In this document: one piece after another, positions 4,871-18,118 of the stretch | How positions within the stretch are numbered: the first letter of the stretch is position 1 | Layout of the letters: every line of letters starts with the position of its first letter | DNA from: Paenibacillus pabuli | GTDB taxonomy: Bacteria > Bacillota > Bacilli > Paenibacillales > Paenibacillaceae | Reading direction: 5' to 3' | Assembly (NCBI RefSeq): GCF_039831995.1 | Contig: NZ_JBDOIO010000005.1 | Location: 248,001 to 312,000, forward strand | Length of the DNA stretch: 64,000 bases | Notes under the pieces: generated by a model | Databases searched by the model: none | The model's input: the letters and a program-made list of their open reading frames with translations, nothing else | What the model was told of the DNA's origin: nothing | Position numbers and translations under genes: made by a program

Positions 4871-5016
4871 TTGTCCATCCTCCCCCATGCCCTTTTCCTC
4901 TATTATATCCACACCGCGCAAACAATCCAGTATAAGCAGAACAAGCGGGGCGCTATCACGGATCCTTCCCTGCTATTCTCGCCTACTCCCTCTAATCTGC
5001 TGTTCCCTTCATCCCA

Positions 5017-5054
5017 ATTAAAAACCCTGCCATCTTCAGAGAAGACAGCAGGGC
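5017..5054 (-). terminator. Terminator after ychF
   Basis: Minus strand: CCCTGC (5049-5054 region) pairs with GCAGGG (5025-5030), with an inner TCTTC/GAAGA pair separated by a 2-base mismatch, followed by TTTTTAATT. It lies 40 bases past the ychF stop. Confidence 0.75.
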
Positions 5055-5094
5055 TGTTAATGTCTATCATGTACTGCTTAAATTGGTTAACCGA

Positions 5095-6195
5095 TTATAC
5101 GTTGAAACGGAAGTGCATAACATCTCCGTCATTGACAACATATTCTTTACCTTCCAAACGAAGCTGTCCGCGTTCTTTGGCACCGTTCATGGAACCAGCC
5201 GCGACCAGGTCTTCGTAGGAAACGACTTCTGCACGAATGAATCCGCGCTCGAAGTCTGTATGAATTACACCCGCTGCGCCCGGTGCTTTTGTACCCTTGC
5301 GGATCGTCCACGCACGAACTTCCTGTACACCTGCCGTGAAGTATGTGTACAGACCCAGCAGTTTGTAAGCGGCTTTGATCAACAGGTTCAGACCGGAATC
5401 CTCGATACCGAGCTCTTCCAGGAACATTTGTTTATCTTCGCCTTCCAGCTCGGAGATTTCTTCTTCAACTTTTGCACTGATCGGCACCACTTCTGCATTT
5501 TCAGCAGCCGCGAATTCTCTTACTTTTTGCACATAGGCATTGTTCGCCACATCACCGATCTCATCCTCGGCTACGTTTGCTGCGTACAGAACCGGCTTCA
5601 GGGTAAGCAGGTGCAGATCACGTACGATCAGACGCTCTTCGTCTGTCAATTCCATGCTGCGTGCCGGCTTATCTTCGTACAGAACAGCCTTCACTTTCTC
5701 CAATACTTCCACTTCTTGAGCAGCCTGCTTGTTGCCGCCCTTCATGTTTTTCTTGGAGCGTTCGATTTTTTTCTCAACACTCTCGATATCAGCCAGGATC
5801 AACTCCAGATTAATCGTCTGGATGTCGCTTACCGGGTCAATTTTGCCATCTACGTGTGTGATATTCTCATCGACAAAGCAGCGTACCACATGAACAATCG
5901 CATCAACTTCACGAATGTGGGCAAGAAACTTGTTACCCAGACCTTCGCCTTTGCTTGCGCCGCGTACAAGACCTGCGATATCTACGAATTCAAACGCTGT
6001 TGGCACCGTTTTTTTCGGTACAACAAGTTCTGTCAATTTGTCCAAACGCTCGTCCGGTACTTCAACGATCCCCACGTTCGGGTCAATCGTACAGAACGGA
6101 TAGTTTGCCGACTCGGCACCTGCTTGTGTAATTGCGTTAAACAGAGTGGATTTACCAACGTTAGGCAGGCCCACGATTCCAGCTTTCAAAGCCAT
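5095..6195 (-). CDS. ychF: Redox-regulated ATPase YchF (Obg-like)
   Basis: YchF is an Obg-family P-loop protein that prefers ATP to GTP and associates with ribosomes and stress responses. The 366 residues match the family length. Visible parts are the P-loop GLPNVGKST near residue 9, the switch segment [10 protein letters not shown], the [17 protein letters not shown] motif near residue 70, a coiled-coil region in the middle and a C-terminal TGS domain ending in VMHFRFNV. The ATG at 6195 follows GAGGAG. It is monocistronic, with its own promoter and terminator. Confidence 0.97.
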
Positions 6196-7437: not shown

Positions 7438-8505
7438 TTACCGCCGCTCGATCAATCTTGGTGTCTGCTGCAAATCTTCGATTCGCCCGGCTCCGATACC
7501 GAACATGACCGTACGAAGTTCGAACTCCACCTGCTCCAGGCGCTGATCCAGTGCTTCATCCGAAGCCACTGCAGATTCCAGCAAGGAACGACCGAAACCT
7601 GCCAGGTCTGCGCCCAGTGCGAGCGCCTTGGCTGCATCCACACCATGATGTAGTCCACCACTGCCAATCAGCACCCCTTCCGGATTCAGCGCCCTGACTT
7701 CCCGGATGCACTCGGCAGTCGGAATGCCCCAATCGGCAAAAGCTTCAGCCGCAGCGCGGCGAACCGGGTTGTTATTCCGGTATTTCTCCACCTGTACCCA
7801 GCTGGTGCCTCCTGCTCCGGCCACGTCGATAAATGCCGCCCCCGCTTCATACAGCCGCTGTGCCGTTATTCCATCAATGCCCCAGCCGACTTCCTTCACC
7901 CCAACAGGCACATCCAGCGTACGGCACAGATCTTCGATCCGGTTCAACAACCCGCTGAAGTCCGTATTGCCCTCCGGCTGAAAAATCTCCTGCAAACCGT
8001 TCAGATGCAGGACCAGCACATCCGCGCCAGCAATCTCAACGGCGCGCTGAAAATCGGCGGTATGGAAGCCGTAATTCAACTGCACTGCACCCAGATTCGC
8101 AATCACCGGGATGTCAGGGGCCCAGCGCCGTACATCGAAGGTCGTCGCCAGTTCAGGTTGTTCCACTGCTGCCCGGATGGAACCTACGCCAAGCGCCCAT
8201 CCTCTGGCATTGGCCACGCGGGCAAGCCGCTCATTGATGGCGCCTGTCGTTTGGCTTCCACCTGTCATCGAACTGATGAGCAGCGGTGTACGGACCTCTT
8301 TTCCAAAGAACACCGTGTTCAGACTAACCTCATCGAAATTCAGTTCAGGCAGGGGATTATGACGAAATACGTACCGTTCCATTCCGCTCGTGATCCCTTC
8401 TCCTGCCACATTCTCTTCCAGACAGAGGCGCACATGCTCCAGCTTCCGTTCCCCCGTAGCCACCTCGGGAAGCAGCCGTTTGCCGGCTCGCTCTTGTTCA
8501 TTCAT
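7438..8505 (-). CDS. fni: Type 2 isopentenyl-diphosphate delta-isomerase
   Basis: Fni interconverts isopentenyl and dimethylallyl diphosphate, using FMN and NAD(P)H, and so supplies the starter for isoprenoids including carotenoids. The 355 residues match the family. Visible landmarks are RKLEHVRLCLEE at the N-terminus, SSMTGGS near residue 80, the HLNGLQE segment, GVKEVGWG and the glycine-rich GSGGLHHG phosphate-binding loop near residue 285. AAGGAGG lies 8 bases before the ATG. It follows the crt operon on the same strand after a 221-bp gap, so it may be read from its own promoter (a weak TTGCCG-18-TATACA is present) but clearly serves the same pathway. Confidence 0.95.
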   Translation of the reverse strand: MNEQERAGKRLLPEVATGERKLEHVRLCLEENVAGEGITSGMERYVFRHNPLPELNFDEVSLNTVFFGKEVRTPLLISSMTGGSQTTGAINERLARVANARGWALGVGSIRAAVEQPELATTFDVRRWAPDIPVIANLGAVQLNYGFHTADFQRAVEIAGADVLVLHLNGLQEIFQPEGNTDFSGLLNRIEDLCRTLDVPVGVKEVGWGIDGITAQRLYEAGAAFIDVAGAGGTSWVQVEKYRNNNPVRRAAAEAFADWGIPTAECIREVRALNPEGVLIGSGGLHHGVDAAKALALGADLAGFGRSLLESAVASDEALDQRLEQVEFELRTVMFGIGAGRIEDLQQTPRLIERR

Positions 8506-8726: not shown

Positions 8727-10205
8727 TCATAGCAGCACGGACGCAAGCTGCTCGCCCACCAGCTGTCCGGATAGCGTTACAATCGGCGTCCCGCCTCCCG
8801 GATGCGTGGTTCCACCCACATACCATAACCCCTGCACATCCCTGCTTTTGTTCCCCGGGCGAGAGAAGGTCTGCCTCACTGAATTGGATGAAATCCCGTA
8901 GATCGACCCTTGATGAGCCAATGTATCGCGCTCAATATCCTGAGGTGTGTACCGGATTAACACATCTGATTGCCTTAACCCTGTAATTCCCCGCTGTGCA
9001 AGTTTATCCAGTACCAACTCACCGTATCGCTCTGTTTGCTCTTCCCAGTTCCATGCATCTGACAGATACGGGGCGTTTACCAATATAAACAGATTACTCG
9101 CTCCAGCTGGAGCCATGCCCGCTTCCGAATAACCGGAATAACAGATGTAGATGGTTGGATCCAGAGGCATTCTGCGTTCACGGAAAATATGATCAAACTC
9201 CGGTTCATACCTTTCCGAGAAAAAGACGGTATGGTGCAGCAGGGAATCATACTGCCTCCGCACGCCAGCCAGTGTCACATAACCGGAAATGGACGGCTCA
9301 TACTTGTGAATTCTGCCATCACTCATCTGCTTCCGATGCTCCGGTGCAAGCAGGAGACGGTTTACACTGAGCACATCACCGTTGGCCACCACCTGAACGG
9401 CTTCATGGAAACCCCGATCCGTATCCACACCGATGACTTTGCCATGTCTAACGACAATTTGCCGAACCTCCGTACCCGTCACAATCCTTACGCCTTTTTC
9501 TTCAGCAAGCTTCGCCATGGCTTTAATCAGCCCGTAGGTTCCGCCTTTTACGCCGTATACCCCTTCATCCGCCTCTACATGGCCCAACATGGCGAAGATG
9601 GATGGCGCTTGATAAGGCGATGATCCGACGTAAGTCGCATAACGGCCGAACATCGCCAATGTGTTTGGATGACTGAAATAGGATCGCAGCAGCTGATTGA
9701 GCTTCACAGCGGGGCGAACCCGCAGCAAACTGCGAAGCATCTGAAGGTTGTACTTGTCCTTTGCGGTCAGCAGCAGCTTGCCAAGAAAGTGACGATTGGC
9801 TTCCGCATAAAGTGCTGCAGACTCATCCATAAATGCATCGTAGCGAAGTGCGTCTTCCGGACTGTAGGCCGCAATCTGTTCTTCCATCCAGTCCCGTTTG
9901 CCGGATAGATCCACCACGGTACCGTCAGCAAATATATTGCGTGTTCGAGGCTCAAGCTCATACAGCTGGACGTAATCCTCCATTTTTGTCCCCGCATGCT
10001 CAAAAACAGAGCAGAAGGCGGAAGGCATCGTAATCGTACTTGGACCGCGGTCAAAATGATATCCGTCCCGTTTCACTTGCTGCAGCTTTCCTCCTATATT
10101 AGCTTGGCGCTCCAGCATGGTTACCTGTATGCCTTGTGATGCAAGGCGAATGGCGCAGGACAATCCCCCGAAGCCCGCGCCAATAATGACCACTTTTCTG
10201 CTCAA
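8727..10205 (-). CDS. CrtN-family carotenoid desaturase/oxidase (third copy in operon)
   Basis: A 492-residue FAD-dependent amine-oxidase-fold enzyme of the phytoene desaturase (CrtI/CrtN/CrtP) family. The Rossmann GAGFGGL motif lies at residues 8-14, FDRGPSTITMP follows, and the C-terminal FAD motif WYVGGTTHPGGG is near residue 460. CrtN-type enzymes desaturate C30 or C40 backbones, and CrtNb/CrtP relatives oxidise terminal methyl groups to aldehydes. It is the last gene of the crt operon and overlaps the glycosyltransferase by 4 bases (ATGA), which fits a late oxidation step before glycosylation, but the exact reaction cannot be assigned here. Confidence 0.85.
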   Translation of the reverse strand: MSRKVVIIGAGFGGLSCAIRLASQGIQVTMLERQANIGGKLQQVKRDGYHFDRGPSTITMPSAFCSVFEHAGTKMEDYVQLYELEPRTRNIFADGTVVDLSGKRDWMEEQIAAYSPEDALRYDAFMDESAALYAEANRHFLGKLLLTAKDKYNLQMLRSLLRVRPAVKLNQLLRSYFSHPNTLAMFGRYATYVGSSPYQAPSIFAMLGHVEADEGVYGVKGGTYGLIKAMAKLAEEKGVRIVTGTEVRQIVVRHGKVIGVDTDRGFHEAVQVVANGDVLSVNRLLLAPEHRKQMSDGRIHKYEPSISGYVTLAGVRRQYDSLLHHTVFFSERYEPEFDHIFRERRMPLDPTIYICYSGYSEAGMAPAGASNLFILVNAPYLSDAWNWEEQTERYGELVLDKLAQRGITGLRQSDVLIRYTPQDIERDTLAHQGSIYGISSNSVRQTFSRPGNKSRDVQGLWYVGGTTHPGGGTPIVTLSGQLVGEQLASVLL

Positions 10206-11350
10206 CTATACCGCCTGCCTTTCCAAACGTATCCTTTCCCTGAGCGACCGGCCCGCCAGGATGCCATTCCAATACCAATCACGCAGGCCATGCTGACAGG
10301 CTGCAGACATGCAAGCCACCAAGGCTGCCCTCCTGTCTGATCTGCCACCCTTTTTACGCCCATGCCCAGCAGTGTGCCAATGAGTCCAAACCAGATCGCT
10401 GTAGAGTTCCCTGACAGTAGTCCGAACAGGAGTCCAAGTGGAGGTACAAGGTACATTAGCGTATACATGAATAGGGTACCCAGCAGGAGTACGTCCCTGC
10501 GTCCCGTTCCTTCGTACATGTTTTTCTTATACCCGTTCCTTACTTCGGTGCCATTCTGATACATTCGCGTGCTGACCCATTCATGCACATCAGCCAGCAT
10601 AACCGGATGACCTGCACGCTTGATCGCCTTCGCCAGACTCATGTCGTCCACCAGATCTCCCTGAATGGCTGCATGGCCGCCGGAAGCCTCATAACTTGAA
10701 CGATGAATCAGCAGAAAAGCTCCGGTTGCCGCTACGAATACCGGACTTGAGGATTTGCGTATCATGAAGATGGGAAGATGGCTGATGATCGTGAATACCA
10801 TCATGGGTACGACCAGCTTCTCCATCCATGTCTTTGCCACCTGATAGGGAAACCCTGTCACAAGACCTCTTCCCAAGTCACAGCCGGCAGCTACGGTATG
10901 CCGAATAGCCTCCGGCTCCAGCCTTACATCCGCGTCAACGAACATAAACCACTCGCCTTTGGCCTCCTGAACCAGTTGATGGCACGCGTGAGATTTACCC
11001 ATCCATCCCGCCGGCGGATGGACCCCCTCAAGCAGTCGTACACGTGCATCCCGATCTGCAATCGCCTGAACCAGGGCCGCCGTTTCATCCTCGGAACGAT
11101 CATCCAGAACCAGCACTTCCATCCGGTAGCCGGTTGTGTCACTTGCGAGTACACTCTCCAGACACCCTTCAATATGTAGTCTTTCATTCCGCGCCGGAAT
11201 CAGGACAGATACAAGCGTATCCTGCTGCAGCAGCCGGTCTGCAGGGAACGAGCGAATTTTGGGAAGACAGGTCGCATTCCAGAGAGCAAAAATCAACTGC
11301 ACACAGAGTGCAGCTGTCAATATGATCCATAATATCTCGGATGCACTCAT
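10202..11350 (-). CDS. Family 2 glycosyltransferase of carotenoid cluster (CrtQ-like)
   Basis: A 382-residue GT2 enzyme with an N-terminal membrane helix and several C-terminal hydrophobic segments. The nucleotide-sugar motifs DDRSED (about residue 85) and DADVR (about residue 140) are present, and an EGTGRRD segment lies further on. By analogy with staphyloxanthin-type pathways it would glucosylate a carotenoic acid at the membrane. The start at ATG 11350 lies one base after the stop of the acyltransferase gene; an in-frame upstream codon at 11392 would overlap that gene. Confidence 0.85.
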   Translation of the reverse strand: MSASEILWIILTAALCVQLIFALWNATCLPKIRSFPADRLLQQDTLVSVLIPARNERLHIEGCLESVLASDTTGYRMEVLVLDDRSEDETAALVQAIADRDARVRLLEGVHPPAGWMGKSHACHQLVQEAKGEWFMFVDADVRLEPEAIRHTVAAGCDLGRGLVTGFPYQVAKTWMEKLVVPMMVFTIISHLPIFMIRKSSSPVFVAATGAFLLIHRSSYEASGGHAAIQGDLVDDMSLAKAIKRAGHPVMLADVHEWVSTRMYQNGTEVRNGYKKNMYEGTGRRDVLLLGTLFMYTLMYLVPPLGLLFGLLSGNSTAIWFGLIGTLLGMGVKRVADQTGGQPWWLACLQPVSMACVIGIGMASWRAGRSGKGYVWKGRRYS

Positions 11351-11351
11351 G

Positions 11352-12113
11352 TTAACGGCCCCCCCGCTTTCGTGCTGCATCGTATTTTTCACTTGTGGAT
11401 CGTCCGTTACGAATCAGGGACACTGCTCCCGGCAGACTTCCTTGTCCGATGCGGACCAGCTGAGACTTATGCTCGTCTAACTGCTCTTCCAACACCTGAC
11501 CAAGCCTGGCTGCAATCTCCTCGCTCTTCCATACACTCCAGTCTTCAATTACAGGTGCTCCGGCAAGCATTGAGATCTCCGGCATATCATGCTGAACCAT
11601 CCCGTGACATAGGGTCACAGGTACGGCTAGTGTCTGCGGAGAGCGGCGAAGCAGTAACCCTATGCCCGGGCGAAACCGGATTGGTCTGGCATCCTGATGC
11701 AGGATTTCGCCCTGCGGAAAGATCCACACTCTTTTACCGGACTGAAGCAGCCCTGTTGTATATTGCATGGTCTTTCGGATCGCAGAAGCACTCTCCTTGT
11801 TGATGGAGTAAGCGCCCAATTTGCGAAAGAAGGCATAATGCTGCAGCTGCCTCTCTTCCATCATGACGTAATGATCCCCTACAGAAGTCCGGCGCGATGC
11901 GTGATAGAGCAGCAGACCATCCCACCAGGAGCTATGGTTCATGAAATAGAGCACAGGCCGGCTCGGGTCAATGGGCGAGACTGCCTTGCCGTCAAATTGC
12001 GGATCCAGTGTTCCCGATAGCGTGAACGAACGGAAGCGCCGGTGCAGCAGATAATACTGATTGTATAAATAAAACATTCGGTTAAACGGTTTTGATTTTG
12101 CGGCGGGAATCAT
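11352..12113 (-). CDS. PlsC-like acyltransferase of carotenoid cluster
   Basis: A 253-residue protein of the 1-acyl-glycerol-3-phosphate acyltransferase superfamily. The catalytic HX4D motif appears as NHSSWWD near residue 59 and the substrate motif as FPQGEI near residue 130. In carotenoid clusters of Halobacillus and Planococcus an acyltransferase esterifies the carotenoid glycoside; that role is inferred here from position. It overlaps the upstream CruF-like gene by 32 bases, so translation is coupled. It is not the membrane-bound CrtO type seen in Staphylococcus. Confidence 0.8.
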   Translation of the reverse strand: MIPAAKSKPFNRMFYLYNQYYLLHRRFRSFTLSGTLDPQFDGKAVSPIDPSRPVLYFMNHSSWWDGLLLYHASRRTSVGDHYVMMEERQLQHYAFFRKLGAYSINKESASAIRKTMQYTTGLLQSGKRVWIFPQGEILHQDARPIRFRPGIGLLLRRSPQTLAVPVTLCHGMVQHDMPEISMLAGAPVIEDWSVWKSEEIAARLGQVLEEQLDEHKSQLVRIGQGSLPGAVSLIRNGRSTSEKYDAARKRGGR

Positions 12114-12849
12114 AGAACCAGCTCCCTTCTGCTAGCAGCATGCCCACAAGCGCAATGATGAAACTGCCTGTGATGCCTTCTTTCCATGCGAGCAAACCGA
12201 ATAACAGGATGAACAGCTGATACAGCCACTTGGCCCGCAGCAATGAGCTGCGGTCAGCAGGCATGGCAGGAAGAAAGAGCGACAGGAACGCACCCATAAT
12301 GAACCAACTGATGTAATTGGTCCAGGGAACGCCATAGAATCCGCCAGGGGCCTCCCAATGCCAGAAACCTCTGGCGTGCGCAACCGGATCCAGTACCAGA
12401 TCAAGTAGAATAGCCCAGAAACCGGTCTTGATTGCACGTATCAGCTTCCCAATCCAGGTCGAACCGCCGCCGCTTAACAGAGCGGAGTTCCCAACGACTG
12501 CAATCCAGGCAAATCCCAGAGTGAGCGGTACACTAAACAGATGAATACCGAAGAAGTCTGAATAGCCGTATTCACCAAAGGGCCAATTCGTATGGACACC
12601 GACCCATTCCACCCCCATGCCACCCAGCCAAAGAATGGCAGAGGATACCCAGAGTCCTGGCTGCTTCCATATGACTGACTGGTCGGACATTCGATTTCTT
12701 CTTCGTCCCTGATAGATCAGATCCACTACATACAGTGCATAGAAAACCAGAAACAGTCCATTCGAAAACGATAGTAGTTTAGGTACTCCGATGGTAAGCA
12801 TCAACGTGGCTCCAATGACGTACCATGCCCAATACAGGACCTGGATCAT
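12082..12849 (-). CDS. CruF-like carotenoid biosynthesis membrane protein
   Basis: A 255-residue integral membrane protein with about seven hydrophobic segments. Motifs GVEWVGVHTNWPFGEY and LDLVLDPVA look like the carotenoid biosynthesis protein family (PF04240) that contains the carotenoid hydratase CruF. CruF adds water across a terminal double bond of acyclic carotenoids. Whether this protein does that or another tailoring step on a C30 chain is unknown. The ATG overlaps the crtM stop in TGATG. Presence of such a gene in a CrtM/CrtN cluster is worth noting. Confidence 0.75.
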   Translation of the reverse strand: MIQVLYWAWYVIGATLMLTIGVPKLLSFSNGLFLVFYALYVVDLIYQGRRRNRMSDQSVIWKQPGLWVSSAILWLGGMGVEWVGVHTNWPFGEYGYSDFFGIHLFSVPLTLGFAWIAVVGNSALLSGGGSTWIGKLIRAIKTGFWAILLDLVLDPVAHARGFWHWEAPGGFYGVPWTNYISWFIMGAFLSLFLPAMPADRSSLLRAKWLYQLFILLFGLLAWKEGITGSFIIALVGMLLAEGSWFYDSRRKIKTV

Positions 12850-13721
12850 CAGGAGACCGCCGTACGCGAAGCCTGATAGGCCAATACCGGATAACGTTTC
12901 ACAATGGCCCCAAGCATCTCCAGTTTCAGCTCATCGGTCACAAATGCCCGTTTGTTATACACGTCATAGTCGTTACGTTCTACCGCGTGTAATATGGTCG
13001 AGTAGAAGGCAGCCGCCAATTCAATGGAAAATGCACTTTCCGTAGGGTAGGTGTCCAGCCGATCCATGCCAAGTCGGAACCATTCGAGTGCTGATGCTTT
13101 CAACTCCTGAATGATGGCTACGAACCGTTCGTCTACAATACCATCTGCCCAATCCTGTTCGTAGTACCCGTGCTTCTCCATGATTTCGAGCGGAACATAA
13201 CGGCGTGCTCTTGCCCGATCTTCACCCACATCACGAATAATGTTGACGATCTGCATGCCCTTGCCAAGTGCAATGCCGTTTACGGCCACTTCGGCACCGT
13301 TGTCATCCCGCAGCACAGGCAGCAGCATTTCCCCTACTGTCCCTGCTACAAGATAGCAATAATGTTCAAGATCTTGCATCGTTGCATAATGGGTCACCTC
13401 AAGATCGGTCATCTGTCCATCCATCTGCCGGAAGAAGGGTCCTTTGTCCAGGTGGGGAAAGTTCGAGAATAACCATCTCAATGCAGGCCAGATAAAGTGG
13501 CCTTCCGCCTCTTCCAGGTATTCAAAATGATCCCGAATCTCGTGTATGGTATACGTTGACTTTTCCGGTTCATCCACACTGTCATCAATGATGCGGCAGA
13601 ACGCATAGATCACATACACCGCTTCACGACGCGGACTGGGCAAACCTCTGAAAGCCTGATAAAAAGAAGAAGATCCCCTCTGCATTAACTCTTCGCACCT
13701 GTTCAAAATCGTTTCATTCAT
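12849..13721 (-). CDS. crtM: Squalene/phytoene synthase family (CrtM/CrtB)
   Basis: This 290-residue enzyme joins two prenyl diphosphates head to head to make the colourless carotenoid backbone. Both aspartate-rich magnesium sites are present: DDSVD (residues 45-49) and DVGED (163-167). In Bacillota with crtN paralogues the product is usually C30 dehydrosqualene, from farnesyl diphosphate, but C40 phytoene cannot be excluded from motifs alone. It overlaps the upstream crtN-type gene by 4 bases (ATGA) and the CruF-like gene by 1. Confidence 0.9.
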   Translation of the reverse strand: MNETILNRCEELMQRGSSSFYQAFRGLPSPRREAVYVIYAFCRIIDDSVDEPEKSTYTIHEIRDHFEYLEEAEGHFIWPALRWLFSNFPHLDKGPFFRQMDGQMTDLEVTHYATMQDLEHYCYLVAGTVGEMLLPVLRDDNGAEVAVNGIALGKGMQIVNIIRDVGEDRARARRYVPLEIMEKHGYYEQDWADGIVDERFVAIIQELKASALEWFRLGMDRLDTYPTESAFSIELAAAFYSTILHAVERNDYDVYNKRAFVTDELKLEMLGAIVKRYPVLAYQASRTAVS

Positions 13722-15181
13722 GTTCCCATCTCCTTCATGAGTAGATTGACAGCCATGCGCGCACTTTGCATGACGATCGGGACGCCGCCGCCCGGATGCA
13801 CCGATGCCCCTGCTGCGTACAATCCGCGGATCGCCGGGAACGGCTTCGGCTGTGGCCGGTACACCCCTGATTGAAACAGGATCGGCGCAATACCGAAGCT
13901 TCCGCCGCCGTAGAGTCCATCACGCTCGGCGTCTGCTGGCGTGCGTACCTTTTTCCATCTGATCGCTGCGCGAAGTCCCGGGAAACCCCGTTGTTCCGCT
14001 TCCTCCAGCACCCGATCCACCAGAGTCCCGCTTTCCCTGGACCAATCCACACCTTCCGCGTCTGGCACCGGAATAAGAAAATACAATACACTTTGACCGG
14101 CTGGTGCAGCGGAATCATCAACAGCGACCGGGTTAAATACATAAAATGAAGACTGTTCCGGAATACGGCGCCGATTGAATACTTCCCGCAAGCTACCATC
14201 AAGACTGGGTGGCAGGAAAAATTGATGCGTCGTTGCATCTTCCCAAGTCTTGTCGACCCCAACATAAATCAGCACACAACCAGATGAGGGCCGATACGGT
14301 TTCTTTTTGCGCGCAGCTACCGGGATAGTGCCCAGAAGGCCCGTCAGATGGGGGAAATCGCCATTATAGATGACTGCGTCCACGTCTTCCGAACCTGCAG
14401 CCGTTTCTACACCTTGGCAAACGCCATTTTCAATACGCAATCCCGTTACTTCTGTATTCAGGACGACTCGCCCCCCACGCGCCATCAGTTCGGTTTCCAG
14501 AATTGAAGGTAATGCAGCATATCCGCCCTTCACCATCCAGATTCCATATTCATGCTCTGCGTAAGGGAGCAGGGAATAGATTCCCGGAGTACCGAACGGC
14601 GAGCCGCCAATATACAGACTCTGAAGCGAATAGGCGTCAACCAGTTCCTCATGTTGAAAATAATCTCCTACGGCTTTACGCACGCTTTTATGTGCGCGCA
14701 GCCTGCCCATCAGAGACAGGAGAGAGGGTGTGAAGAAATCCCTTTTTCGCGGAAAGGCTCTTTCCAGAAAAGCAGACCGTCCTGCCGGGAACAGGGTATC
14801 CATGTCCCTCATGAATCTTGTGAATCCTCGGCTCTCCCCTGGGAATAACCGCTCAATCTCCTCGGCCTGCTGACGGCGGTCTGTCATCTTGGTCATGACG
14901 CGTCCGCTGCTATAGTGAACCCTGTATAACGGATCACAGCGCAGCAGCTCCACCTTGGAACGATCCACGCCAGCCTCCTCCAAAATGCCATGCAGCATGT
15001 CGGGCAGAAGTACGATGGTTGGACCCTGGTCGATGCGATATTCCCCATCCTGCTCATAGCCGATGCGTCCGCCAACTCGGGAACCCCGTTCGTAAATGGT
15101 GACGTCCCATCCCTGCCGATTCAGCAGTAGTGCCGAGGTCAACCCGCCAATGCCTGCTCCTACAATAGCTGCCCGCTTCAT
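13718..15181 (-). CDS. CrtN-family carotenoid desaturase (second copy in operon)
   Basis: A 487-residue FAD-dependent enzyme of the phytoene/diapophytoene desaturase family. GAGIGGL at residues 8-14 binds the ADP of FAD, YRIDQGPTIVLLP follows, and the C-terminal AAGASVHPGGGVP motif lies near residue 460. It shares the fold of its two neighbours in the operon but differs clearly in sequence, so the three copies likely catalyse separate desaturation or oxidation steps. It overlaps both adjacent genes by the ATGA arrangement. Confidence 0.87.
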   Translation of the reverse strand: MKRAAIVGAGIGGLTSALLLNRQGWDVTIYERGSRVGGRIGYEQDGEYRIDQGPTIVLLPDMLHGILEEAGVDRSKVELLRCDPLYRVHYSSGRVMTKMTDRRQQAEEIERLFPGESRGFTRFMRDMDTLFPAGRSAFLERAFPRKRDFFTPSLLSLMGRLRAHKSVRKAVGDYFQHEELVDAYSLQSLYIGGSPFGTPGIYSLLPYAEHEYGIWMVKGGYAALPSILETELMARGGRVVLNTEVTGLRIENGVCQGVETAAGSEDVDAVIYNGDFPHLTGLLGTIPVAARKKKPYRPSSGCVLIYVGVDKTWEDATTHQFFLPPSLDGSLREVFNRRRIPEQSSFYVFNPVAVDDSAAPAGQSVLYFLIPVPDAEGVDWSRESGTLVDRVLEEAEQRGFPGLRAAIRWKKVRTPADAERDGLYGGGSFGIAPILFQSGVYRPQPKPFPAIRGLYAAGASVHPGGGVPIVMQSARMAVNLLMKEMGT

Positions 15182-16728
15182 GAATGGCCTCCGGCTTCGG
15201 CGGTCTTCACATAAGGCGACCGGTTCGATCGGGTCTTGGCATCCTCTTCCTGGATCAGCCTGACACTGATTCGAGCAGACTCAAATATAGTAGGCAGTCC
15301 GCTGCCCGGGTGGGTTCCGCCGCCAACGAGCCATACCCCTTTCAGTTCTTCGAACTGATTGTGCGGGCGCAGATACATCATCTGACCCAGATTATGAGCC
15401 ATGTTAAACGTCGCGCCGCGGTACACATCCAGTTCATTTTCCCAATCGAGCGGTGTGAACATCATGGACTCTTCAATTCGGCTCCGTATGTCTGCCAGCT
15501 CCGGGATCGCTTCAAGCCGCTGCATCATCGCTTCGCGCACGTTCTCCCGTTCCACATCCCAATCGATGTCTCCCGTAAGGTTGGGAGAAGGCATGAGCAC
15601 GTATAATGCAGATTTTCCTGCAGGTGCGAGTGTCGAATCGAGCTTGGAAGGGTTATGAATATACAGAGACGGGTCAGCGGACAACACTTTATGCTTCGTG
15701 ATCTCATCCACATTCAATCGGTAATCATCGGGAAAATAAATCGAGTGATGCGGCAGATCAATCTCAACGTCTACTCCCAGATAGAGCATCGTGGTAGAAC
15801 AGGAGTACTTCTTGCGTTTCATTTTCTCCGGCGTATATTTCTTAAGCACACCCGGTTCGAACAGATGGTTCACCGCATGCGCGAAGTCTGCATTAACGAC
15901 CACATGATCCGCTTCAATGCGTTCACCGTTCTCAAGCAGCAGTCCCTCGGCTCGGCCATTACGGACGATGACCTGCTCCACCGGGCAGGATGTATGTATA
16001 CGTCCTCCATATTCTTTTACAATGTCAGCCATGGCCTGGAATACACGATTCACACCGCCGATCGGATGAAAGAGTCCATAATGGTGCTCGATGAAAGACA
16101 GAATCGTGAATGTACCCGGACAATCCCAGGCAGACATGCCCAAATATTTAGATTGAAACGTAAAGGCCCAGCGCAAACGCTCGTCAGTAAAATAGCGGGA
16201 CAGGATGCCATAGACTGTATTGTTCACGTCCAGCTTCGGAAGAGCCGTTACCGCATCCTTGCGCAGATAGTCTGTCAGCTTGCCGAAAGGCCGGCGCAGC
16301 AAAGGCATGACCTTACCAAACTTGACTTCCTCATCCTGCATAAACCGCAGGTAATTGTCCTCATTACCAGGGAACAATTCCTTGATCTGCGCTGCAGTAT
16401 CTTCACGGTTACGGGAAGGTGTGAACACCTTATCGCCAAAGTTCAGGGCATACAAGGGCGTCAGTTCCTTCAAGTCCACGTAATCGGATAGTTTGCGTCC
16501 TACGATGTCGAACATCTCTTCAAGCAGTCCAGGCATCATTAAGAATGTCGCGCCCCGGTCGAAGCGGTATTCACCGAGCTCCAGCCTCGCAGAGCGTCCA
16601 CCAATCACCGGTTGTTTCTCATAAACGTCCACTTCGTATCCCTGACCGGACAATAACATAGCCGCTGCAAGCCCGCCTGGACCGGCACCGATAACAGCCG
16701 CCCGTTTCCGTTGCTGATTAGATATCAT
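15178..16728 (-). CDS. CrtN-family carotenoid desaturase (first gene of crt operon)
   Basis: A 516-residue FAD-dependent desaturase and the first gene of the crt operon. GAGPGGL near residue 15 binds FAD, YRFDRGATFLMMP follows, and WLVGGGTHPGSGLP lies near residue 485. Of the three paralogues it looks nearest to the main CrtN/CrtI desaturase, which introduces the conjugated double bonds, though that is inference. The start at ATG 16728 follows AAAGGTGAG; the open frame extends upstream to 16869 but that would read through the promoter at 16836-16864. The leader is about 100 bases. Confidence 0.87.
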   Translation of the reverse strand: MISNQQRKRAAVIGAGPGGLAAAMLLSGQGYEVDVYEKQPVIGGRSARLELGEYRFDRGATFLMMPGLLEEMFDIVGRKLSDYVDLKELTPLYALNFGDKVFTPSRNREDTAAQIKELFPGNEDNYLRFMQDEEVKFGKVMPLLRRPFGKLTDYLRKDAVTALPKLDVNNTVYGILSRYFTDERLRWAFTFQSKYLGMSAWDCPGTFTILSFIEHHYGLFHPIGGVNRVFQAMADIVKEYGGRIHTSCPVEQVIVRNGRAEGLLLENGERIEADHVVVNADFAHAVNHLFEPGVLKKYTPEKMKRKKYSCSTTMLYLGVDVEIDLPHHSIYFPDDYRLNVDEITKHKVLSADPSLYIHNPSKLDSTLAPAGKSALYVLMPSPNLTGDIDWDVERENVREAMMQRLEAIPELADIRSRIEESMMFTPLDWENELDVYRGATFNMAHNLGQMMYLRPHNQFEELKGVWLVGGGTHPGSGLPTIFESARISVRLIQEEDAKTRSNRSPYVKTAEAGGHS

Positions 16729-16824
16729 GCCACTCACCTTTCTAATGGTCAGAAAACCCACTTCTACCATTCCTAACCTATTATTAAACCATCGAAAAAT
16801 CATCGAAGCGAATATTATCCAAAC

Positions 16825-16868
16825 GTTATACAAATATAATACAAATATTGTACGAACTTGTAAACACA
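16825..16868 (-). promoter_or_regulatory. CarH-type operator over the crt promoter
   Basis: On the plus strand three consecutive 11-mers follow each other without gap: gttatACAaat (16825-16835), ataatACAaat (16836-16846) and attgtACGaac (16847-16857). A fourth, degenerate ACA sits at 16864-16866. ACA triplets are spaced 11, 11 and 12 bp. Thermus CarH binds 11-bp direct repeats of the form nnTnnACAnnn overlapping its promoter. The array covers the whole -35 to -10 stretch of the crt promoter, so bound protein should block RNA polymerase. Confidence 0.7.
16836..16864 (-). promoter_or_regulatory. Promoter of the crt operon
   Basis: Minus strand: -35 TTTACA (16859-16864), exactly 17 bp, -10 TATTAT (16836-16841). 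Both boxes match the SigA consensus in 5 of 6 bases. Transcription would start about 100 bases before the first crtN-type gene. Confidence 0.75.
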
Positions 16869-16913
16869 AATATGACTAGCGGGTCAAATAACTGCAAAAA
16901 TATCGTTCATATC

Positions 16914-16952
16914 AAAAAAAGACACCCTCTAACGCGCTTGCGTCAAAGGGTG
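16914..16952 (-). terminator. Terminator after the CarH-like gene
   Basis: Minus strand: CACCCTTTGACGC and GCGTTAGAGGGTG pair over 13 bp (with two G-T pairs) around an AAGC loop, followed by TCTTTTTTT. It isolates the regulator gene from the crt promoter just downstream. Confidence 0.85.
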
Positions 16953-17042
16953 CCTTTTCATGAATAGCCATACGTTATCCTGGGAGAATAGGTCTCATTA
17001 AACTCTTCAATCATATCCATTTGTCTGCCGCTGAACTGCCGC

Positions 17043-18008
17043 TTAACCCTGCGTTCGGGAGGGGTTCTCCGTCAGATACTCTCGCTCCAGCCATGCCTGC
17101 CAGTCTGATGAATGCTCTGGCATGACCCAATCCGGATAAGCTGCATTCTCATTGTGCTCGTAACCCTTGCCGCCAAGGATAAAGCGCATATCCGGAAACT
17201 CGGTCAGAATGCGATCGACAAGCCGATCACACTGCTCGCTTAAGCCGGGATTTGTAATGGAGAGACAGACCAGCTTGATCTTCTGCTCCCGGATAATAGG
17301 AAATACCCCTTCCTCGGGAGTATTGGCACCGAGATATAATACCTCGGCTCCATTTTTACGCATAAACAACGAGAATAACAGCAATCCCACCTGATGATGC
17401 TCCCCCTCCGGACAGAGTGCCAGAACTTTGGGCAGATGCGGATAGATCGGGAACAGATGGAAAAACTGATAGAACCGCTGCGAGATCAGCTGGGTCATAA
17501 AGTGCTCCTGAGCGACCGATGCTCTGCCCTGCTCCCATGCGTCCCCCACGCGAACGAGGATAGGTACAAGCACATGGTAAAACATCGAATCATATCCATA
17601 CATGGTGAAGCCAAAATCAATTAACCCGTTGGCACGTTCACCCTGGAAATGGTAAAGCGAGTCATATATCTGATCAGCCATGCGTAAGTAGGCCTCTTCC
17701 ATCGTAGGAACAGGCGCGGTAGGCGGAGCCGGAATGACTGCTTCTGGCAATTTCGCTTTGTTTTCTTTTAACATGCGTACGGCTTCAGATATGTTGGACT
17801 GATGCTGTTCAACCTGCTCCTTCAGCCAACGTAAATCTTCAACATTCTCATCCGTGTACAATCGATAACCCGATTCCGTCCGTTCTGGGGTTACCGCACT
17901 GTACCGATTCTCCCAAGCCCGGAGCGTAACCGTTGGAATGTCCAGCATGGCAGCGACTTGTTTGATGGAATACACTTGATTACCCACTCTCTTTTCTGAA
18001 ATATCCAT
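17043..18008 (-). CDS. CarH/LitR-like B12-dependent photoreceptor regulator (MerR family)
   Basis: A 321-residue regulator with a MerR winged helix at the N-terminus (about 12-75, YSIKQVAAMLDIP), a four-helix cobalamin cap domain and a C-terminal Rossmann-like B12-binding domain. The photosensory signature Wx9EH is exact (W158, E168, H169), and the cobalt-ligand motif ExHxxG is EHHQVG with H205. Spacing between these residues matches Thermus CarH closely. CarH tetramers bound to adenosylcobalamin repress DNA in the dark and fall apart in light. It lies upstream of the crt operon, and 11-bp repeats occur in both promoters. Direct light sensing is inferred, not shown. Confidence 0.88.
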   Translation of the reverse strand: MDISEKRVGNQVYSIKQVAAMLDIPTVTLRAWENRYSAVTPERTESGYRLYTDENVEDLRWLKEQVEQHQSNISEAVRMLKENKAKLPEAVIPAPPTAPVPTMEEAYLRMADQIYDSLYHFQGERANGLIDFGFTMYGYDSMFYHVLVPILVRVGDAWEQGRASVAQEHFMTQLISQRFYQFFHLFPIYPHLPKVLALCPEGEHHQVGLLLFSLFMRKNGAEVLYLGANTPEEGVFPIIREQKIKLVCLSITNPGLSEQCDRLVDRILTEFPDMRFILGGKGYEHNENAAYPDWVMPEHSSDWQAWLEREYLTENPSRTQG

Positions 18009-18067
18009 GCCATCTATAGGTTAACGAATACTTCCTCCGTCCTTGTCAGGGATATGAAAATCCCAAC

Positions 18068-18100
18068 ATTCCACAAAAATAATACACTCATTATACACAA
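18068..18100 (-). promoter_or_regulatory. CarH-type operator at the regulator's own promoter
   Basis: Plus strand: three 11-bp units, attccACAaaa (18068-18078), ataatACActc (18079-18089) and attatACAcaa (18090-18100). The ACA triplets are spaced exactly 11 bp, as at the crt operator, and the second units of both sites share ataatACA. The array covers the -10 box and start region, pointing to autoregulation. Confidence 0.65.
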
Positions 18101-18118
18101 CGGCCTTACACCTGTCGA
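18090..18118 (-). promoter_or_regulatory. Promoter of the CarH-like gene
   Basis: Minus strand: -35 TCGACA (18113-18118), 17 bp, perfect -10 TATAAT (18090-18095). The leader is about 75 bases. Together with the operator this fills the gap to the divergent gene at 18236. Confidence 0.7.

Follow-up and report, generated by a model that had tools for sequence, protein, structure and literature searches.

The 64-kb stretch of Paenibacillus pabuli DNA analysed here (the window, 64,000 nucleotides) was found to carry two matched arrays of gapless 11-bp direct repeats, one at the promoter of a carotenoid (crt) operon and one at the promoter of the adjacent carH-like gene. It is very likely that both are operators of the CarH-type repressor predicted from that gene, which would repress crt and carH in the dark and allow their induction by light. 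The initial annotation had proposed a CarH-like operator at the crt promoter only, and this reading is supported by the matching array at the carH promoter, by the place of both arrays over -10 elements, by their conservation among relatives and by the absence of the crt array from two genomes that have crtI and no carH; as judged from these sequence comparisons, the crt repeat is very probably a CarH-type operator.

The crt operon, on the minus strand, extends from 16728 to 8727. Its first gene (15178–16728) encodes a crtI-family desaturase (TIGR02734, 463.8 bits) and is followed by genes for a second crtI-family desaturase (13718–15181; TIGR02734, 350.6 bits), a crtB-like member of the squalene/phytoene synthase family (12849–13721; PF00494), a CruF-like carotenoid biosynthesis protein (12082–12849; PF04240), an acyltransferase (11352–12113; PF01553), a family 2 glycosyltransferase (10202–11392; PF00535) and a third desaturase, of the crtI/crtD family (8727–10205; TIGR02734, 389.9 bits). 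Just after the operon lies a gene named by eye as a fni-type isopentenyl diphosphate isomerase (7438–8505, minus strand). The carH-like gene (17043–18008) is upstream of the operon on the same strand. Between the two, an inverted repeat at 16905–16968 (minus strand) forms a terminator-like hairpin followed by a T-run; the minus strand folds with -34.4 kcal/mol (z -8.0, equalled by none of 200 shuffles), and the hairpin scan has an entry at these positions for the plus strand only. As a strong hairpin with a T-run separates carH from crt, the crt operon should need its own promoter. A cobalamin adenosyltransferase (PF01923), for making adenosylcobalamin (AdoCbl), is also encoded. Neither tRNAs nor Rfam families at gathering score were found in the 64-kb window.

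The regulator includes the domains PF13411, PF02607 and PF02310, all above their cut-offs, such that a MerR-type DNA-binding part precedes a B12-binding part. Both photoreceptor motifs ascribed to it in the initial annotation are present, the adenosyl-sensing Wx9EH motif as WEQGRASVAQEH and ExHxxG as EHHQVG, which includes the axial His. Its sequence matches that of CarH 5c8d (E 6.3e-31), and the nearest folds to its structure model, a modest one (pLDDT 73.4, pTM 0.48), are those of CarH 5c8e/5c8f (Foldseek), so that the fold is CarH-like. The protein thus resembles Thermus thermophilus CarH in domain order, in both motifs and in nearest fold, with 23–30% identity to the full-length chains (Foldseek ranks 1–12). 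Against the NCBIfam model NF052513 (TransRegCarH) it scores 136.4 bits, under the curated cut-off of 400, and it therefore falls outside this equivalog and within the wider CarH/LitR group only. The nearest relatives by name are in P. illinoisensis (95%), Paenibacillus sp. ACRRY (95%) and P. xylanilyticus (92%). In the T. thermophilus mechanism His132 serves for bis-His cobalamin in the light; the Paenibacillus regulator has Glu instead, at its residue 159, and the 86 compared rows hold 81 Glu, one His and four other residues at this position. The equivalents of Trp131, Glu141, His142 and His177 are kept in 85, 86, 85 and 85 of the 86 rows, respectively.

The predicted crt operator occupies 16821–16853 on the minus strand. 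Read in the crt sense, from 16853 to 16821, it consists of GTACAATATTT, then GTATTATATTT, then GTATAACGTTT, and with a period of 11 it has 18/22 identities, against at most 10 for any other period from 6 to 16. Three gapless 11-bp direct repeats thus overlap the promoter, at least three having been looked for. The initial annotation had described three such units, each with ACA, and a degenerate fourth one across 16825–16868, over both the -35 and the -10. The repeat itself stands, with its conserved 33 bp at 16821–16853 instead. Only two ACA triplets, at 16830 and 16841, are present on the plus strand; in the third unit ACG (16852) stands instead, as it does in 37 of the 41 close regions (a count that includes the window), and at the fourth position AAC (16863). 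A -10-like TATTAT (16836–16841, minus strand) is indeed covered, being in unit 2, and the -35-like TTTACA (16859–16864, minus strand) lies 5 bp outside the operator. The supposed fourth unit (16858–16868) has to be given up, since good conservation there is limited to the TTTAC of the -35 (0.88–0.98), with the other columns at 0.65–0.77.

The promoter-like pair TTTACA-17-TATTAT reads leftwards to crtI. Four such pairs were found in 1.5 kb against 3.0 expected, and with a count so near expectation the pair is weak evidence by itself. Hexamers like a -10 are found in units 1 and 3 as well, so that the assignment of the crt -10 to unit 2 is tentative: the unit 2 hexamer is 17 bp from the -35, and the one in unit 1, which corresponds in position to the carH -10, is the most often TATAAT (37 of 43 leaders) and reads TACAAT in the window.

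A second predicted operator, absent from the initial annotation, was found at the carH promoter (18064–18096, minus strand) and reads GTATAATGAGT, GTATTATTTTT and GTGGAATGTTG. The promoter, TCGACA-17-TATAAT (18090–18118, minus strand), has its -10 in operator unit 1. Arrays like TGTATAATnnnTGTATTATTTTTGTAGAATGTT are common to the carH upstream regions of relatives (46 distinct among 64 entries, window included), and TGTATAAT is invariant across these 46. The carH array outscores the crt array, and its position, as far as sequence can tell, suggests autoregulation of carH. A PLD-like gene (PF13091; 18236–19717, plus strand) diverges from carH, and because the array is within the upstream region common to both genes, the PLD-like gene might be affected too. 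The consensus nnnnTnnACAn is fitted by two of the three carH units and by one of the three crt units in the window, pseudo-repeats being allowed in print; in 41 close regions the full TnnACA fit was seen in 82/123 carH and 48/123 crt units.

Triples of TnnACA at 11-bp steps with at most two mismatches number nine in the window, where 4.1 would be expected, four of the nine being at the crt and carH arrays; one of 100 shuffles reached this total. As chance should yield about four triples per window with the two mismatches seen at crt, such a match was not used as proof. Since this rule was unconvincing for the crt site alone, an independent matrix was built from 28 distinct carH-promoter arrays of other genomes (one being identical in sequence to that at carH in the window), with no crt sequence included. 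Over the window it scored 52.9 at the carH site and 32.9 at the crt site, the next values being 10.9, at the crt site displaced by one unit, and -2.3; the best score in 100 simulated 64-kb windows was 5.9, and none reached 32.9. A separate unit matrix, with a triple-unit score of at least 18 as the pass bar, comprises 62 units, six of them from crt, and is hence not independent for crt; it gives the crt leader of the window 41.0, and one of 1000 shuffles of this leader passes 18, at 21.8. Across the genome, a two-unit pattern with at most two mismatches gave 14 matches (five of them within the two arrays) against six in the reversed control, and a three-unit pattern with at most three mismatches showed no excess (32 matches, 37 in the control). 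Two off-locus pairs, one by genes that by eye are cysteine desulfurase-like and Rrf2-like (L162) and one near a gene that by eye is sensor-like (L163), were set aside as probable chance matches.

Conservation was followed in crtI upstream regions of relatives, which are not independent samples; the 62 entries reduced to 44 distinct ones, of which 43 entered the column averages. Locus L035 was left out of the averages because its leader could not be aligned; the carH and crtI matches are 78 bases apart there. Mean column identity was 0.96 for the operator, 0.96 for the ribosome-site region, 0.91 for the -35 and 0.90 for the unit 2 -10, against 0.78 for the rest of the leader and 0.63 upstream. 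A promoter kept without its repeats, which would have spoken against the initial annotation, was looked for in this alignment, and the opposite was found, the operator being on average better conserved than either promoter element. TTTACA is present as the -35 in 30 and TATTAT in unit 2 in 32 of the 43 leaders; the 11 departures in unit 2, nine of them at the last base, keep GTA together with ATTT or GTTT. In units 2 and 3, GTA and TTT vary little or not at all (0.95–1.0).

A conserved 11-bp periodicity across related genomes, which the same annotation had named as a check, is borne out. Upstream of crtI, a triple-unit score of at least 18 was obtained in 41/41 loci whose crtI is 75% identical or more and in 18/21 at 50–75%, the leaders missing the bar being L035, L116 and L117. 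Upstream of carH it was obtained in 41/41 loci at 75% or more and 16/19 at 50–75% (cropped region), where L118 and L119 missed owing to cropping (29.2 and 30.1 in wider regions) and L128 has a broken carH. Left out of these counts were the window itself (L001), L002, loci numbered beyond L149 and those from the pattern search. At CarH identities under 50% no more than 6/28 pass, which is counted against the CarH-operator reading; some of these distant loci, 22 of which are below the bar, have between one and three TGTA units close to carH. A 20-shuffle test (60/62 crtI leaders, 70/90 carH regions) was superseded for crtI by the threshold of 18; it had listed L116 as array-bearing (12.9), and this candidate was rejected, being rich in T and having no TGTA units in tandem.

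Among 75 Paenibacillus genomes, 51 have both carH and crtI, three carH only, two crtI only and 19 neither; as the genomes are related, no P value is attached to this co-occurrence. The two with crtI only (G031 and G065) have no carH match at E 1e-20. When the leaders of the two (L116 and L117) are compared with that of a carH-bearing genome (L120, G047), 74 and 73 of the 84 positions on the crtI side are unchanged, as against 19 and 16 of 33 within the array span, and no tandem TGTA units are left. On the far side of the array 31/53 bases are kept and a 24-base gap adjoins the array, so that the loss takes far-side bases too and is a deletion plus drift rather than a loss of the units alone; since the two genomes are alike, they represent one or two events at best. 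In P. xylanivorans (L028/L127; L028 positions 4966–5222), which is without crtI, carH is followed by a fni-like gene; no array was found between the two, and carH retains its own array. The frame of this carH is open, with EHDDVD in place of ExHxxG. The arrays, as they appear in these genomes, are largely co-inherited with carH.

By analogy with known CarH proteins, AdoCbl-loaded CarH, probably as a tetramer, would occupy the units in the dark with one DNA-binding domain per 11 bp, covering the -10 regions at both the crt and carH promoters and excluding RNA polymerase. Light would break the Co-C bond, change the CarH assembly and release the DNA, whereupon the crt operon and carH would both be transcribed; the additional CarH made in the light would permit fast re-repression once dark. 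Published CarH operators are described, in the accessible parts of the sources, as tandem 11-bp repeats over promoter elements (PMC9304148, PMC8156234). The three gapless 11-bp units of the window have their counterpart in the T. thermophilus operator (5C8E), in which one repeat is stated to include the -35 (PMC9304148, in part), whereas the crt array covers the -10 and stops before the -35. Bacillus (Priestia) megaterium, also of the Bacilli, is reported in the available text of PMC6739363 to control crt genes by CarH/LitR, and like the window it has tandem 11-bp repeats overlapping the -35 or -10; excerpts of PMC9304148 and PMC8156234 give it four repeats, or three and a pseudo-repeat, against three here, a comparison by description and not by unit sequences. 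Among the matches listed no description of a Paenibacillus CarH operator was found, subscription papers being largely outside the search.

Upstream of the crt -35, a palindrome TTTGACC-N4-(G/A)GTCA (16873–16888, minus strand) is conserved in 35/43 leaders and is perhaps the site of a second regulator. Genome-wide, TTTGACC-N4-GGTCA with at most one mismatch gave 34 matches against 45 in the control, and with no excess no regulon is inferred; that it might be a CRP/FNR-like or TetR-like site is presumably conceivable, as an idea only.

The Glu at the His132 position raises the alternative that the regulator does bind the repeats and responds mainly to AdoCbl supply or another cue, Glu blocking light-driven disassembly. 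His132 of T. thermophilus CarH is linked to light disassembly, and the H132A protein is mostly tetrameric in the light, though an earlier study cited in the same source saw disassembly (PMC10442372, as far as its accessible text goes). The Glu in 81 of the 86 compared proteins speaks for this alternative, yet the other four photoreceptor positions are nearly universal in the same proteins, B. megaterium CarH is described as light-responsive (excerpts of PMC9304148 and PMC8156234), and an isolate nearest Paenibacillus alvei by 16S rRNA has weak light-induced pigment (PMC6739363, whose available part does not cover the regulator), so that this explanation is unlikely. A MerR and B12 photoreceptor without the Thermus His132 is also known, CtMerR of Chloracidobacterium thermophilum, with Arg there (PMC11796333, accessible part); judging from the two names it is presumably the 8JBS protein, which matches the Paenibacillus regulator more weakly (E 1.2e-13).

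That the repeats are tandem -10 elements, with a TATAAT-like hexamer every 11 bp, and are conserved to serve RNA polymerase and not CarH, would agree with the -10-like hexamer in every unit (TATAAT in unit 1 of 37/43 and unit 3 of 31/43 leaders). It is very improbable, because unit 2 departs from TATTAT in 11/43 leaders and still retains GTA with ATTT or GTTT, the bases flanking the hexamers (G before, TTT after) are among the best conserved (0.95–1.0), and the array is gone in G031 and G065, which lack carH, while crtI remains. The same two genomes argue against a different regulator on the repeats with carH as an incidental neighbour, as does the like array at the carH promoter in 46 distinct aligned regions; the conserved palindrome indicates that other factors may act at the crt leader, but such a regulator on the repeats themselves is hardly to be expected.

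Control by CarH, established in Thermus, in myxobacteria and in B. megaterium, would extend to the Paenibacillus analysed here and to its relatives, 51 of the 53 crtI-bearing genomes among the 75 searched in the genus having carH too. The regulator and operators very probably belong to the already known CarH type, with the comparative series and the Glu position of specialist interest. Possible, though tentative, is a large CarH branch in the Bacilli with Glu for His132 and a -10-embedded TGTAnnATnTT array, in which two arrays gate carH and crt by a switch without bis-His; adenosyl ligand loss giving dimers, or a rearrangement of the Glu, might provide such a switch. With Glu in 81/86 compared proteins, the debated part played by bis-His in light release can be tested directly.

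Unit number varies, as expected of an operator, with five tandem crt units in P. pini (L030) and, among sister-genus loci with units at both carH and crt (L103–L110), four at crt in L108. This natural series of three, four and five units, and none where carH is absent, makes operator rules testable by comparison. The crt leader of L122 has a second TGTA pair 41 bp upstream of the crt pair and out of the 11-bp phase (11, 41, 11), which might be part of a bipartite operator, and a second upstream pair of the same kind was seen by eye in L123 and L125.
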